This document shows positions 992-20,248 of a DNA stretch of 25,904 nucleotides, piece after piece. A model generated the notes under the pieces. It was not told where the DNA came from. It saw nothing but the letters and a program-made list of their open reading frames with translations, and did not search any database. The stretch comes from a virus: positions 1 through 25,904 of the IMG/VR virus record IMGVR_UViG_3300047548_000793. The stretch is one strand, 5' to 3'. Numbering within the stretch: position 1 is the first letter of the stretch; each line of letters begins with the position of its first letter. The position numbers and the translations under genes were made by a program.

Positions 992-1489
992 TTACTTACC
1001 CATTTCCTGATCGAATAAAAGGATCTCGCCCGTTCCCTTCGCGATCTCATAGCGTTGTAAGAGATCACCGGCTTCGCCGACGCTTGAAGTCTGGATTTTG
1101 ATAAACTCGAGCAATAACGGTTCGCTTACGCAATCCTCGCTTCCGTCCGTATCCATTTCCTTATAGGCCTTTACGTACGTTTGAAGGAGTTTCAGTTCCG
1201 TATCGTAATACAGATTTAAAGCGTCCTCGAGATTGATAACGGTATCCGTAATTTGATAGGACGGAACACTATTTAAGACGCTACCCATATCGTTTACGAA
1301 GTCGCGAATCTTTTTATAGTGTCCGAATTCGGAATCGCTTTCGCTCTCAAAAAACTTCTGTGAACCGAAAAATCCCGTCGCTTGTAACTGATTTGCGATG
1401 TGGATATAGAGATAATGGGCGTAGATTTCTTCCCCGGATAACATCTGCCATAAAGCCAGGGAGGAAGCGGGCAAAACAGGTTTTTTCAT
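992..1489 (-). CDS. Ferritin-like protein in the phage head module
   Basis: Product of 165 residues, about the length of bacterial ferritin. Visible ferritin features, in order: GEEIYAHYLYIHI (E20/E21, helix A), SEFGHYKKI (E54 and H57, the ExxH of helix B), LYYDTELKLLQTY (E98, helix C), FIKIQTSSVGEAGDLL (helix D) and a tail, GTGEILLFDQEM, resembling the GEGLYFIDKEL tail of E. coli FtnA as remembered. Most ferroxidase-type ligands are thus present, while the Glu-Gln pair of helix D appears to be Ser-Ser, with E139 nearby. Ferritins oxidise and store iron as 24-subunit shells. It is the first gene after the promoter at 1521-1554 and sits between portal and scaffold-like genes, which suggests a structural or virion-associated role. 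Iron binding is not proven. Confidence 0.72.
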   Translation of the reverse strand: MKKPVLPASSLALWQMLSGEEIYAHYLYIHIANQLQATGFFGSQKFFESESDSEFGHYKKIRDFVNDMGSVLNSVPSYQITDTVINLEDALNLYYDTELKLLQTYVKAYKEMDTDGSEDCVSEPLLLEFIKIQTSSVGEAGDLLQRYEIAKGTGEILLFDQEMGK

Positions 1490-3335: not shown

Positions 3336-4886
3336 TTATTGAGTTATTACGATGTATTTAGCTTGCTTCGATTTATATTGCTGGAATTCATTCGCGAGTA
3401 GCGTCATTATAAAGTAACGTTTCGCGTCGGAAAAATGGCCATACTGCTCATAACTTACGCCGGTGCTCGAATCCTTCACTTTCGTTTTTTGCATTTTCCC
3501 CTCCTTGTCGTGCTTCACAGAATAATAGTCCTCAATACTCACAACGCAGGACGGGTCAATCCGAATGCTGAACCCCAGTAACTCACTCTCGTAAATTTCG
3601 TTTATAAAGTTAGCACTCAGGGCGATCTCGGGCATAGATTTTTTAACTCGTGTGATAACTTTATATCCGGACTGCTTTAAAACTTCGATAAACTTATCGA
3701 AAAACGAGGCGGAATTCGCGTCTACGGTAGATCTCGCGGAAGCGGAGGGATCGCCGTAAATATAAACGATGTTTGCGTACTTCAACCGATCGAGATACTT
3801 CGCGAGGAGGATCGACGCCTTCACCGCATTGTTATTCGGGGACTTCGCCGGGATTTCGTGAATCTGTCGGATTTCCTTTCCGCTGACCTGCCAGACGGAA
3901 CAAGTAACGTACGGGGAGACGTTATTATCGAGGGAAACGTGAATCGTCGTCGACGAATCGTAAGGCGTAGGCGTTACGTGTTTCAGCGTGCTGAATCCGC
4001 TCCAAAACTCGCCTCCGGCCTGAACGGGTTTCGGATTTTGCTGATAAAGGGCCTCGTACGTCCGGACGGATTTTTTCCGGACGTTGAGTAATTTTTCTTT
4101 CGAGTGTCGTTCGGGCCATAACGCTTCGCCCTCCTTCCGGGGATCGTCTGGGTGGCCTATACCGGTTTTAATCGCCGGGAGGAGGAGAACTTCCCAATCT
4201 TCGCCGCCCTCCTCCATTTGCTTTATAATTCGTCCGGAAAGGTCGTTAACGTCCCATCTCGTTTGCGTTATCAGGACCCGGGAGTTATTATGAAGTCGGG
4301 TAGAGAGGACGTCGGTATACCAATTCCAGTTCCTTTCCTGATACGTCGGGGACATGGCCTCGATCGCGTCCTTTACCGGATCGTCGATGATCGCGACGTC
4401 TGCGGGTGTACCGGTGAGCGATCCACCCACGCCTACGGTTTTCAAAAATCCGCCGTATCGAACGACTTCGAATAATTCGTTAGTCCGTACCCACTTCCCG
4501 GAATCGTCTTTATCCGCGCCGATTTTCGTATCGGGGAAAATATCCCGATATACGGGCTCGTCGATAATACGCTGACAATCCCGATTAAAGGAATTCGCGA
4601 GATGGGCGGAATAGGACGCGAGGACGATCTTCGTTTTCGGATTACGGCCCAAAATAAATGCGGGAAGGCAACGGGATACGAGTTCCGACTTCCCATGCTG
4701 AGGGGGCATGAACACCATAAGGCGCTGGATCTCTCCCCGGACGAACCGATCGAGATAGTCGCATAATAGTCGATGGTGCCAATTCGCTTCGTAAGACGGA
4801 CGGACGTACTCGACGAAATCGAGGAGGTTACGCCTTCCGAGTTCGGCTCTTACGTTGCAATCGAGCAAGTGTTCTAAGTTCTGCAT
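3336..4886 (-). CDS. terL: Terminase large subunit
   Basis: Product of 516 residues, normal for the DNA-packaging motor that cuts concatemers and pumps DNA into the prohead. The N-terminal ATPase half has a Walker A-like PPQHGKSE at 61-68 and a Walker B DVAIIDD ending at 169, followed by a TQTRWDVNDLSGR segment typical of this terminase family. The C-terminal half looks like the RNase H-fold nuclease, with acidic residues in SLDNN and YGDPSAS. The start overlaps the small-subunit gene by 59 bases. It is probably transcribed from the promoter at 7484-7517 with the modification genes upstream, which places DNA modification and packaging in one unit. Confidence 0.93.
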   Translation of the reverse strand: MQNLEHLLDCNVRAELGRRNLLDFVEYVRPSYEANWHHRLLCDYLDRFVRGEIQRLMVFMPPQHGKSELVSRCLPAFILGRNPKTKIVLASYSAHLANSFNRDCQRIIDEPVYRDIFPDTKIGADKDDSGKWVRTNELFEVVRYGGFLKTVGVGGSLTGTPADVAIIDDPVKDAIEAMSPTYQERNWNWYTDVLSTRLHNNSRVLITQTRWDVNDLSGRIIKQMEEGGEDWEVLLLPAIKTGIGHPDDPRKEGEALWPERHSKEKLLNVRKKSVRTYEALYQQNPKPVQAGGEFWSGFSTLKHVTPTPYDSSTTIHVSLDNNVSPYVTCSVWQVSGKEIRQIHEIPAKSPNNNAVKASILLAKYLDRLKYANIVYIYGDPSASARSTVDANSASFFDKFIEVLKQSGYKVITRVKKSMPEIALSANFINEIYESELLGFSIRIDPSCVVSIEDYYSVKHDKEGKMQKTKVKDSSTGVSYEQYGHFSDAKRYFIMTLLANEFQQYKSKQAKYIVITQ

Positions 4887-5232
4887 CCGTTAGTTTACTT
4901 AGGTCCGGGGTATTCGTTGCGTTAAGACTTTCGCCGTCCGTCGTATGATCTATGTCGAGAGGTTGCTTCGGCTTCCCGTATACGCGATCGAGAAGGGCGT
5001 TAAATGCGGACGTGTCTCCCTTCCGCGCCTTCTGAATTTGGGAAAGCGTTATAATGTCCATTTGCGTAAGTACTTCGACTTTACCGGATGCGGGATTCTT
5101 TATTTTTTCGGAAGCCTCGAGCCATTTCCGGATGATCGTCGACGCGTTAAGCGTCCCTTTCGGCCTACCGTTTGGGTTCCCGGATTGGCCTTTTTTAAAG
5201 CCTTTTCCTATCAGGTTTTCTGGGTTTGGCAT
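4828..5232 (-). CDS. terS: Terminase small subunit-like protein (DUF5681-type N-terminus)
   Basis: Product of 134 residues. The N-terminus carries KGQSGNPNGRPKGT (residues 14-27), the signature of the DUF5681 domain, commonly found in genes just before phage large terminase genes. The middle (STIIRKWLEASEKIKN ... LSQIQKARKGDTSAFNALLDRVYGK) is helical, as expected for a DNA-recognition subunit. The basic C-terminus overlaps the large-subunit gene. The cos or pac site it would recognise was not identified. The role is inferred mainly from position and the DUF5681 motif. Confidence 0.8.
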   Translation of the reverse strand: MPNPENLIGKGFKKGQSGNPNGRPKGTLNASTIIRKWLEASEKIKNPASGKVEVLTQMDIITLSQIQKARKGDTSAFNALLDRVYGKPKQPLDIDHTTDGESLNATNTPDLSKLTDAELRTLARLQRKSRTRKA

Positions 5233-5257
5233 TTCGCTGCTTTTTCGTTGTTTAACC

Positions 5258-6283
5258 TTAGATCTTTGATAACCATTGTAAATAGATCTGACGGCTTATA
5301 TTGGCCATCATCACCGGGAGGACGCTACGTCCCATAACGGATATGCCGTTTATGTCTAAAAAGTCGTAATCGTTCGGGAACGAACAAAGTAGACGAACCT
5401 CCGAAAGATTCAATTTTCGCTTTTGTAGAGGATGGCATACTCCCGCCGTTGCTACGTTGGAATCGCTCTCGAGAATCGTATAACAAGGTTTCTCTAAATA
5501 GGGTTTTTTAAGACTGAAACGTACCGGATGCGAGCCGAAACTGAATTCATCCCATAGAGGGCCTATCGAGAATTTTTCGATACTCTCTCCTCCCTCATCC
5601 CAAAACTTTTTTGTAGCGTCGAATCCTACTTGCGGACAATCAAAGTCCAGGACCAGGCGCGGAAGGCTGAACTCCTTACGATGCCCGATTATGAAAACCC
5701 GATTTCTGATCTGAGGGATTCCCATACTCGCGGCGTAAAGTAAAAACGCTTGTACGTTATACTCCGCCGATAATCGGGTGACGATATTTTTCAGATAGCT
5801 TCTCGCGTTTCCCTTCATAAGGCCCGAGACGTTCTCGAGGAGAAAAACCTTCGGTTTGAGTTTTTCTATCGTATCGCAGTAGACGTAAACGAGATCGTCC
5901 TTTACTTGCTGCTTCCCTTCGTATTCGGAGACTTTACCCCATAGCTTTTCACGTGCGCCGACGGTAGAAAAGGCCGCGCAGGGAGGAGAACCATCCAAAA
6001 GGTCCAGTTTATAAAGTTCCTCCGGGAGATCAGTCCGCTTATTGAACTCGCGTATATCCTCGAGGTAAAAGTATTTCGGATTGTGGTTCGCTTTGTAAAC
6101 CTTCGAGTAATGATCCGTAAACTCGACGCCTCCGAGGTGATCGTATCCCGCCAACTTATATCCCATCGTCGAACCTCCTCCGCAAACGAATGTCCCGAAC
6201 ACCTTTTTTCCATGGTACGGGACTTTTAAGGGATCGGAAAGGTTCCATTCGAGAGGGAAAATATTTTCTGTTACTTTTTGCAT
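5258..6283 (-). CDS. DNA cytosine-5 methyltransferase with unusual motif X (GRSV)
   Basis: Product of 341 residues. Motifs of C5 methyltransferases in order: motif I GTFVCGGGSTMGYKLAG (30-46, cofactor binding), motif IV GSPPCAAFS with catalytic C102, motif VI ENV (150-152), motif VIII QIRNR (191-195), target-recognition region about 205-290, and motif X GRSVLPVMM (318-326). Motif X is normally GNSV, so Asn is replaced by Arg319 next to the cofactor pocket. The start overlaps the CmoA-like gene by 13 bases, so the two are very likely co-translated. Usual role: methylation of cytosine in phage DNA, to evade host restriction or mark DNA for packaging. With the neighbour, transfer of a carboxymethyl group is possible. 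Target sequence unknown; no partner nuclease is visible. Confidence 0.92.
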   Translation of the reverse strand: MQKVTENIFPLEWNLSDPLKVPYHGKKVFGTFVCGGGSTMGYKLAGYDHLGGVEFTDHYSKVYKANHNPKYFYLEDIREFNKRTDLPEELYKLDLLDGSPPCAAFSTVGAREKLWGKVSEYEGKQQVKDDLVYVYCDTIEKLKPKVFLLENVSGLMKGNARSYLKNIVTRLSAEYNVQAFLLYAASMGIPQIRNRVFIIGHRKEFSLPRLVLDFDCPQVGFDATKKFWDEGGESIEKFSIGPLWDEFSFGSHPVRFSLKKPYLEKPCYTILESDSNVATAGVCHPLQKRKLNLSEVRLLCSFPNDYDFLDINGISVMGRSVLPVMMANISRQIYLQWLSKI

Positions 6284-6909
6284 AAATAGCCTTTAAAGTT
6301 TAGGTATTTAAAAAACGGCTCTATCGTCGTAAAGCCAGCCTCTTTGAGGAGATCGATATTATCTTTCGATTCAAGGCTATTCATCATAGCACGGAGATCG
6401 TATTCCTTCGCGAGAATCTCCTCCGGCGTAAAAACGTTCCGCTTATACTGATAATTCGAGAAGGTGAACACCTCTTGTATGATCCCGTTTGCGCATATTT
6501 CCTTTTCGCAGAAGATAAAGGCCCCGTTTTTATAGAGAGATCGATAGACTTTTCGGAGGACTTCAATACGTTTGGCGTAGTCTATGAACTGCAGGGTGAA
6601 TACTGAATAAATAAGATTCGTCTCCGGAATAACGAAATCCGGGTCTGTTATATCCTGTACGCGAAGATCCAGACCGTCGATAAACTGAGCCGGAGTAATA
6701 TCGTATCCGATAACGGGACAGTTATACGCTTCGTGAACAGCTTTGAGTAGTTTCCCGGAAGTACAACCCAGATCGATAGGCGTAACGCCGCTTTTAATGA
6801 AAAAACTGCTTATGTTGATAATCAGGGAATGAAGTACGGAATAACCGTATATGCTTCCGCTGATATGGTGATCAAAATCCTTTACCGTATCGAAGGAAAA
6901 TTTACTCAT
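6271..6909 (-). CDS. CmoA-like enzyme (possible carboxy-SAM synthase)
   Basis: Product of 212 residues, a class I SAM-binding fold. It matches E. coli CmoA (from memory) along its length: FDHHISGSIYGYSVLHSLI near the N-terminus, DLGC at 46-49, VFTLQFID (103-110) against NFTLQFLE, NGAFIFCEKE (128-137) against GGALVLSEKF, YKR at 155-157, and a C-terminus LLKEAGF ... FFKYLNFKG against RLHNAGF ... WFQCFNFGS. CmoA converts SAM and prephenate to carboxy-SAM, used in bacteria for wobble-uridine modification of tRNA. In an ungapped alignment the Arg that holds the carboxylate (R199 in CmoA, from memory) falls on E169, and Arg appears one helix turn later (R173). The cofactor made is therefore uncertain. 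It overlaps both neighbouring genes. Confidence 0.75.
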   Translation of the reverse strand: MSKFSFDTVKDFDHHISGSIYGYSVLHSLIINISSFFIKSGVTPIDLGCTSGKLLKAVHEAYNCPVIGYDITPAQFIDGLDLRVQDITDPDFVIPETNLIYSVFTLQFIDYAKRIEVLRKVYRSLYKNGAFIFCEKEICANGIIQEVFTFSNYQYKRNVFTPEEILAKEYDLRAMMNSLESKDNIDLLKEAGFTTIEPFFKYLNFKGYLCKK

Positions 6910-7453
6910 TGAAAAGTAGCTTTAATACGGCTTCCTCGTTTGTTTTCGCGATCGATTGAAGTCTATCTTTTACGCGCCAATAATCTTCCTCCGAAAACTT
7001 CAACTTTATTTCCATATCCGTATCGAGATCCTCGAAATCGATCTCCTGGTTCTTCGCGGAGTAGTTTATTTCGGAAACTTTCGGAACGTCAAGGCCCCAG
7101 TTCGAGAGAGGGCCCATTTCCCATTCATTGGCGAGGGATTCCCAGTCCCACTCGCCGAAGCCGATATTATCCCGGATCAGAAACTCGTTCCGCTTTTCCT
7201 CCGTCCAATCGTCCGCGAGGGTTACGGGAATTTCTTTAAGTCCTACCTCCTTCGCAGCTTTAAGACGCATATTCCCGCCGAGGACGACGAACTTCCCGTC
7301 CGTATCCGTATAACAAACGAGAGGACGCTTTTCGAGCATCTCCGGGAAGTCCCGTATCGAATCGACGAGTTTTCGGAATTTCTCGTCCTTAATCAGGCGC
7401 GGATTTTTCGGGTTCGGTTTGATTTTTTTTAAGGGGACAGACTGTATAACCAT
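6902..7453 (-). CDS. ParB/sulfiredoxin-fold domain protein
   Basis: Product of 183 residues from the ATG at 7453. The longer frame begins at a TTG at 7465 and is less likely. The N-terminus (VIQSVPLKKIKPNPKNPRLI ... KLVDSIRDFPEM) and VVLGGNMRLKAAKEVGLKEIPV (about 60-81) are the ParB-like nuclease fold, with GGNMRLKA as the signature. DNWTEEK-type and NEFLIRDNIGFGEWD segments are common in phage versions. Such genes often sit before phage methyltransferase and terminase genes; their exact role is unclear (DNA binding or nicking). It is first in the unit from the promoter at 7484-7517 and overlaps the CmoA-like gene by 8 bases. Confidence 0.87.
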   Translation of the reverse strand: MVIQSVPLKKIKPNPKNPRLIKDEKFRKLVDSIRDFPEMLEKRPLVCYTDTDGKFVVLGGNMRLKAAKEVGLKEIPVTLADDWTEEKRNEFLIRDNIGFGEWDWESLANEWEMGPLSNWGLDVPKVSEINYSAKNQEIDFEDLDTDMEIKLKFSEEDYWRVKDRLQSIAKTNEEAVLKLLFNE

Positions 7454-7483
7454 AAGGGATATCAAAAGTTATTATTTGTTCCG

Positions 7484-8767: not shown

Positions 8768-9379
8768 TTAGTTATGTAAAATTTCAAATTCAATCACCCA
8801 TACCCACGGGTTTTTATTCCACGATTCTTGGCCGTTGATGGATTCCCACAAAGACTTGAATGACTGAATAGGATTTTCATCCCACCAATTATTTGCTTCG
8901 TATATTTTATATGAATTAAGCGATACAGATGTTTCGTCTATCTTAAACTCAATGCCTTCGGAAATGGCATCTTCCTGGCTTATTTCTTGCAACCTTTCTA
9001 CGCGTACATCGATGATTTTTAAAAAAATTCGTGCAGCTTCTTTCGGCATGTGGATGGATGGTTTCCATTTTGCAACAGGAGAAAAATCATCGGGATAATC
9101 ATCTGCTTTGTATAAGTATGTATCGCTGTGCGCATAATTGCTTTGTGCTTTACCCCACGTTTCCCGAACCCAAAGAATGTCTCCGCGCTTTCCGTATTGG
9201 CATCCCAATAATTTGCCATTTAAACTTGGTGGTTGCTCTAACGGTCTCCAAAGATTACCCGCAACGTGTGTCATCCCTGTAAGGGGCTGCGGATTTACAA
9301 TTCGCCTCGTCTGTGTTTTCCTCCCTTGCAAAATGGCCTGAACCATCGGTGTGCTGAATAAAATCGGACGTTCTTTCAT
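8768..9379 (-). CDS. ASCH/PUA-like domain protein, probably recently acquired
   Basis: Product of 203 residues. The N-terminus (RPILFSTPMVQAILQGRKTQTRR) has the GxKxxTxR-type motif of ASCH domains, and GDILWVRETWGK plus the C-terminal WVWVIEFEIL fit the phage-associated subgroup. ASCH domains are PUA-like beta barrels thought to bind RNA or modified nucleotides; function in phages is not settled. The gene is visibly more AT-rich than its neighbours and uses different codons (many AAT, AAA, TTT, ATT), and it interrupts a run of small replication genes. This points to acquisition as an extra gene (moron). Confidence 0.82.
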   Translation of the reverse strand: MKERPILFSTPMVQAILQGRKTQTRRIVNPQPLTGMTHVAGNLWRPLEQPPSLNGKLLGCQYGKRGDILWVRETWGKAQSNYAHSDTYLYKADDYPDDFSPVAKWKPSIHMPKEAARIFLKIIDVRVERLQEISQEDAISEGIEFKIDETSVSLNSYKIYEANNWWDENPIQSFKSLWESINGQESWNKNPWVWVIEFEILHN

Positions 9380-19156: not shown

Positions 19157-20248
19157 TTAGATCGTTTTCAGTATAGCGGCCTGCTTCTTTATGTTTTCCC
19201 CGGAGAGATGATAATAGACTTCGACGGTGCTGGAATTCACGCCGAGGAGTTCCGCCGTAACGCTTTTCGGTAATCCGTTCGACGCGCAGATATAGCCGAA
19301 GGAATGTCGCGCGACGTGTGTCGTTAACGGTTTATGGATCTTCGCAAGGCCGGTAATCGCTTTCAGCATCGTATTACATTTCTGATTCGATACGGGAGGA
19401 GGTAACGTTCGGACGACGCGTAAGATCTTCCGCAACGTCGGACCGATCGGGAGTACTACCCATTTCCCGGATGATCCGCTCGTCTTACGGGGACGAAGTT
19501 TAAGGAATTCACCCTCGACGCGTTTATCGTAATCAAATAACACCCAGTCGGAGTGTCGAAGGCCGGAGTACGCGCCCAGGAGGAAAAAGGAGAGGGTATT
19601 ATAAAGGTTTTCCGGAAGATCAGCGTCGAGGAGTTTAACCAGGCGTTTAAGTTCGGATTCGACGAGATAAATACGTTCCGATTGAATATACTTCGGCATT
19701 AGGAACCCTTTGAACGGGGATTCCTTTATCAGGCCTTCCGCGAGCGCCTGATTCGTGATCCTCCGGATATACTTGAAGGATTGGTTAATCGTATTCTGGG
19801 CCATCCCTCGCGCCCGCTCGTGCGCCTCATATCTGCGCAGGAAAGCGGTATCGACTTCCGAAAGTAAAAGACTATTCCCGCAGAACGTTTTAAGCCTATT
19901 CGCTTCCTTATTGCTTTTCCTGACTTCCTGAGCGTACGAAAAAAACGATCGATCTTTTACGTTCCCTTCCTTTATGATTTTATGCGTTACGGGAATGTTT
20001 TGAAGTTTATTCTCGACGATCTGTTTTTCGATCTTCGCCACTTCCCGACGGAGATCGACGTTTATGATCGACGCATTTTCGTGATTGACGACCAGACGTT
20101 TTTTCGCGTCCCATTGCGATTTATGGATACGGTACGTCGTAGCGTGATACGTAACGACGCGATTAATCGTTAGCGCGATCCGGATCGTGCCGTATCCTTC
20201 TTCGTTCGCCTTATGCGTTAGGAACGCTGGTCGGACGGTATACTTCAT
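19157..20248 (-). CDS. int: Tyrosine recombinase / integrase
   Basis: Product of 363 residues. N-terminal arm-binding domain (about 1-95, AKWDAKK-like SQWDAKKRLV), SAM-like core-binding domain (about 100-190) and catalytic domain with R231 in AYSGLRHSDW, K255 in LRPRKTSG, H311 and R314 in HVARHSFG, and Y345 in VEVYYHLSG. The usual second His after LLG is replaced (LLGVNSS), a known variation in some recombinases. It integrates and excises the phage genome at att sites. The candidate attP and its own promoter lie directly upstream. The domain order is that of Bacteroidota phage and transposon integrases. Confidence 0.93.
   Translation of the reverse strand: MKYTVRPAFLTHKANEEGYGTIRIALTINRVVTYHATTYRIHKSQWDAKKRLVVNHENASIINVDLRREVAKIEKQIVENKLQNIPVTHKIIKEGNVKDRSFFSYAQEVRKSNKEANRLKTFCGNSLLLSEVDTAFLRRYEAHERARGMAQNTINQSFKYIRRITNQALAEGLIKESPFKGFLMPKYIQSERIYLVESELKRLVKLLDADLPENLYNTLSFFLLGAYSGLRHSDWVLFDYDKRVEGEFLKLRPRKTSGSSGKWVVLPIGPTLRKILRVVRTLPPPVSNQKCNTMLKAITGLAKIHKPLTTHVARHSFGYICASNGLPKSVTAELLGVNSSTVEVYYHLSGENIKKQAAILKTI

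Follow-up and report, generated by a model that had tools for sequence, protein, structure and literature searches.

A putative CmoA-CmoX-type DNA carboxymethylation cassette in a temperate phage probably infecting Bacteroidota

The stretch of viral DNA analysed here, hereafter the window, is the whole of IMG/VR record IMGVR_UViG_3300047548_000793, a linear, incomplete fragment of 25.9 kb (25,904 nucleotides), and it very probably carries a CmoA-CmoX-type DNA carboxymethylation cassette belonging to a temperate phage whose host is likely to be a member of the Bacteroidota. CmoA makes carboxy-SAM (Cx-SAM) from SAM and prephenate, normally for modification of the tRNA wobble position. In the window, a CmoA-like protein (P0002) would convert host SAM and prephenate into Cx-SAM, and the product of the overlapping gene, a DNA cytosine-5 methyltransferase (C5-MTase; P0001) carrying Arg (R319) instead of the motif-X Asn, would use this cofactor in place of SAM, transferring the carboxymethyl group to cytosine C5 within a short recognition sequence and so placing 5-carboxymethylcytosine (5cxmC) in phage DNA. 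Both reactions are assigned by homology, whereas the genes, overlaps, residues and co-occurrence patterns behind them are direct observations. A ParB-domain protein (P0003) probably helps to recruit or place P0001 on DNA, and 5cxmC, with no CmoY in the record, is probably the end product, which would shield the DNA from host restriction.

The same kind of chemistry has recently been demonstrated: CmoA and CmoX make 5cxmC in Synechococcus phage S-B43, and HhaI resistance was shown for it in vitro (PMC12783734, Nat Commun, Dec 2025). The original prediction, made from the window alone, proposed carboxymethylation and restriction resistance and knew of no characterised natural example among phages. 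The chemistry it proposed was of the right kind but is not new, as S-B43 now is such a phage. The window cassette is a further ligase-less, ParB-linked member of the known CmoA-CmoX system, and its novelty is low.

The cassette and the phage genes placed around it are as follows:

992..1489, minus strand: ferritin-like/rubrerythrin-like protein, close to phage structural genes
3336..4886, minus strand: terminase large subunit (PF03237)
4828..5232, minus strand: DUF5681 protein, probable terminase small subunit (domain search, position), next gene downstream of P0001
5258..6283, minus strand: P0001, predicted CmoX-type DNA cytosine-5 carboxymethyltransferase, 341 aa (sequence, PDB and fold match, motifs)
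6271..6909, minus strand: P0002, predicted CmoA-type carboxy-SAM synthase, 212 aa (sequence, fold, TIGR00740)
6902..7465, minus strand: P0003, ParB_N-domain protein (PF02195), third member of the cassette
8768..9379, minus strand: PHROG 874 protein, conserved in phages, a few genes upstream of the cassette
19157..20248, minus strand: tyrosine integrase (Arm-DNA-bind_5 and Phage_int_SAM_5 domains)

Read along the minus strand, the order is ParB-domain gene, cmoA, C5-MTase gene, DUF5681 gene and terminase large subunit gene. By ORF coordinates cmoA and the C5-MTase gene share 13 bases (6271-6283), and the ORFs together with the PF03237 match agree with the predicted arrangement of an overlapping pair upstream of terminase. 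The ParB-domain gene and cmoA have 8 bases in common; the listed start of the former is TTG, with an ATG four codons further in. RNA families, tRNA genes, promoters and terminators were sought near the cassette, and none rose above chance level. Elsewhere the record encodes RecT, an SNF2-type helicase, a Holliday junction resolvase and RadC, a gene content that, with the integrase, fits a temperate phage. The integrase domains are of kinds that we take to be usual in Bacteroidota elements, and prophage-like loci of Hymenobacter, Spirosoma and Larkinella encode the closest chromosomal relatives of the window CmoA; the host is probably a bacterium of this phylum.

The similarity of P0002 to CmoA does extend along its length, as had been claimed: residues 10-208 match E. 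coli CmoA 4gek (phmmer 8.5e-14), the best PDB matches are 4gek/4iwn by sequence and 4iwn by fold (E 4.6e-18, TM 0.84, from a predicted model with pLDDT 93), and TIGR00740 is matched at 7.2e-21, with a score of 74.9 bits that lies below the 193.3-bit cut-off. The validated SpCmoA likewise falls under that cut-off (115.6 vs 193.3 bits), and P0002 is ~36% identical to S-B43 CmoA. In E. coli CmoA, Arg199 forms a salt bridge to the Cx-SAM carboxylate (PMC3663124). In our alignment the equivalent position is Glu in both P0002 (Glu169) and SpCmoA, and both have an Arg (R173 in P0002) at E. coli position 203, one helical turn past 199. Nearly all phage CmoAs compared have Arg at this second position, where bacterial-type CmoAs have Glu, so that the motif mostly reads K[E/Q]xxLR in the phage types vs KRxxLE in the bacterial type (P0002 residues 168-173). 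We take the phage-type Arg as a putative shifted counterpart of E. coli Arg199. E. coli N132 is also not conserved in P0002 or in SpCmoA. The idea that P0002 is non-functional for want of Arg199 and Asn132 was considered and is not decisive, because SpCmoA, whose activity was measured (PMC12783734), lacks both.

The E. coli CmoA-CmoB pathway to tRNA cmo5U resembles the window in having a Cx-SAM synthase that uses SAM and prephenate; the window differs in its presumed DNA target, in the loss of Arg199 with an Arg one helical turn further along, and in the absence of CmoB, the tRNA-acting partner, which our search of the record likewise failed to find. The window also contains no tRNA gene. In the three prophage-bearing Cytophagales genomes (Hymenobacter, Spirosoma and Larkinella), no CmoB was found above cut-off and each genome has a single CmoA match, at the prophage-type locus; a role in tRNA modification is therefore unlikely for CmoA in those hosts.

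P0001 matches DNA_methylase PF00145 at 2e-38 in a domain search, and its best PDB match, both by sequence (1.4e-26) and by fold (a moderate TM of 0.69 for a predicted model with pLDDT 93), is 8YF3, the SpCmoX of phage S-B43, to which it is ~29% identical. The C5-MTase active-site motifs are present, namely SPPC with nucleophile C102, ENV with E150, and QxRxR with R193/R195. Motif X reads GRSV, and R319 aligns with SpCmoX R350, the position of M.HhaI N304. The SpCmoX cofactor contacts F25, E47, F48, D69, C98 and R350 (PMC12783734) align to F32, E54, F55, D76, C102 and R319 of P0001. The features tied to Cx-SAM use in the published CmoX work (SPPC, and Arg for HhaI N304) are thus present in P0001, a candidate Cx-SAM enzyme as judged from its sequence. 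The engineered M.MpeI N374K, a laboratory mutant with CG specificity, has a positively charged residue at the equivalent site, which enables Cx-SAM use (PMC12783734); the Arg of the window is natural. Comparison of two relatives (L005 vs L004) gives dN/dS values of about 0.026 (CmoX) and 0.054 (CmoA), which indicate purifying selection on both.

The S-B43 CmoA-CmoX-CmoY system and the window share cmoA beside a C5-MTase that has SPPC and, at the position of HhaI N304, Arg; they also share the same CmoX cofactor contacts, the same placement of the CmoA Arg, and an association with ParB. The window differs in having no CmoY, in the direct overlap of cmoA with cmoX and a ParB gene preceding cmoA, in belonging to a temperate phage, probably of Bacteroidota, and in a CmoX on a separate branch of the MTase tree. 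The published work lists 5,615 CmoX candidates, of which many are accompanied by CmoA, while a ligase occurs with some and a ParB-domain protein with some, and counts 1660 ParBc sequences in CmoX contigs (PMC12783734).

To gather relatives, P0001, P0002 and alignments of each were used as queries against viral contigs, and annotated phages were added; the loci examined reach 6-10 kb on each side of the match. The CmoA-CmoX pair, with order and overlap kept, recurs in many other viral contigs, so the proposed search for the same gene pair in other phages found it repeatedly. Across these relatives, the presence of cmoA in the neighbourhood tracks the motif-X Arg almost perfectly. At the position of R319, Arg occurs in 74 distinct MTases with cmoA in the locus and in one without (L012, whose contig begins inside the MTase gene), and the MTases with no cmoA in the locus have Met (85 distinct proteins) or Asn (3). 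Loci collected through CmoA are biased towards the presence of cmoA; among loci found with the MTase query alone, not chosen for cmoA, 12 Arg contigs have cmoA, L012 is the one further Arg contig, and all 82 Met contigs lack cmoA. The Flavobacterium phages, which have complete genomes and the Met type, were not among the organisms named for CmoA matches. In 13 contigs with different terminases, CmoA and CmoX are present in every one and ParB, located upstream of the pair, in 11, all of the window clade, and no further gene accompanies the pair throughout.

Homology (8YF3, R319) and this coupling together support the predicted flow of the CmoA cofactor to the neighbouring MTase to give 5cxmC. 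They also bear on the simplest alternative, in which P0001 simply makes 5-methylcytosine from SAM, as ordinary C5-MTases do, and P0002 methylates small molecules or tRNA, is functionally unconnected with P0001 and is its neighbour by chance. PHROG 4752 does label the P0002 family tRNA methyltransferase, and by fold P0002 is also similar to CysG/BelI-type methyltransferases, but the sequence similarity is specifically to CmoA, neither CmoB nor a tRNA gene accompanies it in the record, the motif-X Arg is strictly coupled to cmoA, and wild-type SpCmoX accepts Cx-SAM only (PMC12783734); we consider this alternative highly improbable. A second alternative, that P0002 serves mainly to drain host SAM or prephenate as an anti-defence measure with DNA modification secondary, takes up a question raised in the discussion of the published work about the host effects of CmoA-mediated SAM depletion (PMC12783734). 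It would leave the linked Arg of the adjacent MTase and the shared operon unexplained, and appears scarcely credible.

The Met-type enzymes constitute a sister C5-MTase family (L013-L017, L026-L028, L033 and L114-L191 except L176) with GMSV at the cofactor-gating motif-X site; their genes lack an adjacent cmoA, and many are overlapped by a ParB-like gene. Its members, found in Flavobacterium phage Fpv11, Cellulophaga phage phi18:3 and many viral contigs, are about 39-50% identical to P0001 and closer to it than SpCmoX is; they differ from it in having Met for Arg and no cmoA, and are presumably SAM-dependent. A group of divergent C5-MTases with motif X GRTI also lies beside cmoA (L058-L060, L062, L074, L075, L083, L087, L090, L091, L094, L101, L103 and L110); only weakly CmoX-like, it may represent another separate carboxymethyltransferase branch. 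L176 encodes a CmoX-like protein of 727 aa (4879-7062, plus strand), about double the usual length and possibly a fusion, with CmoA and a CmoY-like gene upstream of it.

Returning to the window cassette, the likely fate of the carboxymethyl group depends on the ligase. CmoY, an Asn-synthetase-like ligase, adjoins cmoA/CmoX in S-B43, PaBG, a Staphylococcus phage and many other loci, and in S-B43 it processes 5cxmC further, the virion DNA containing 5gcxmC and no free 5cxmC (PMC12783734). By analogy, the carboxymethyl group of the window phage could be a handle only, turned into an amide in the manner of CmoY by an enzyme that is host-encoded or lies outside this incomplete linear record. Against this, no Asn_synthase-type gene (CmoY-like ligase) was found in the window, itself a fragment, no CmoY-type ligase was found in 22 viral contigs of the window and GRAV clades, of up to 34.8 kb, or at the L231 locus, which belongs to another relative, and the 13 contigs with different terminases share only CmoA, CmoX and, in 11, ParB. 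We regard the handle as unlikely; since the ligase is absent from all of these sequences, plain 5cxmC is probably the end product in the window clade, a conclusion drawn from absence in incomplete records.

One relative adds a gene that bears on the other end of the pathway. L003 is a 4.3-kb viral contig with a CmoX 77% identical to that of the window, and it encodes the following:

L003:1247-2191, plus strand: DAHP synthase-chorismate mutase fusion, 314 aa (PF00793 1.7e-27, PF01817 2.8e-13)

The gene is flanked by cmoA, with which it shares 19 bases, and by cmoX, with which it shares 7. Chorismate mutase yields prephenate, the co-substrate of CmoA, and the fusion is plausibly a prephenate supply for CmoA. 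Among isolated phages, IMG/VR and 89 phage/virus records, only L003 had such a gene beside cmoA; the other matches came from records without annotation, possibly host DNA submitted under a phage name, and the window has no such gene. The L003 fusion is independent, single-case support for the prephenate-dependent reading of the cassette. The CmoX paper treats the availability of prephenate as an open question, and neither the word chorismate nor a phage-borne prephenate supply gene like that of L003 occurs in its text (PMC12783734).

In a maximum-likelihood tree of 43 MTases, the window Arg clade (the window, L003, L004, L009, L011 and L023) is nested inside the Met-type enzymes with support of 100/97, separately from the S-B43 branch. 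An AU test rejected a single clade of all Arg-type MTases (p-AU 0.001) but did not reject the Met types as one clade (p 0.36), and for this reason a second, separate origin of the motif-X Arg is likely, not proven; the Arg may instead have arisen once and been lost later. In many Met-type loci the ParB-like gene directly overlaps the MTase gene, most often by 8 bases, and in the window clade cmoA is placed between the two. The nesting suggests an origin in a Met-type, ParB-linked operon that received cmoA between its ParB and MTase genes, together with a change from Met to Arg. The CmoX of L003 is close to that of the window and its CmoA is not; from this conflict between the two trees it follows that parts of the cassette have been exchanged. 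We tentatively propose, with confidence a little short of even, a fuller history: the window branch gained Cx-SAM use separately from S-B43, when cmoA entered a GMSV ParB operon and Met gave way to Arg; it never had a ligase and stops at 5cxmC; and at least one relative gained a prephenate gene.

These observations extend the recently described 5cxmC system to temperate phages, probably of Bacteroidota, whose 5cxmC probably keeps a free carboxylate. The phages of the window clade offer a natural setting for testing whether 5cxmC is by itself enough to protect DNA, and their Met-type sister enzymes provide a clean natural comparison for Cx-SAM use by C5-MTases. The L003 gene suggests that the supply of prephenate, left open by published work, can be limiting.
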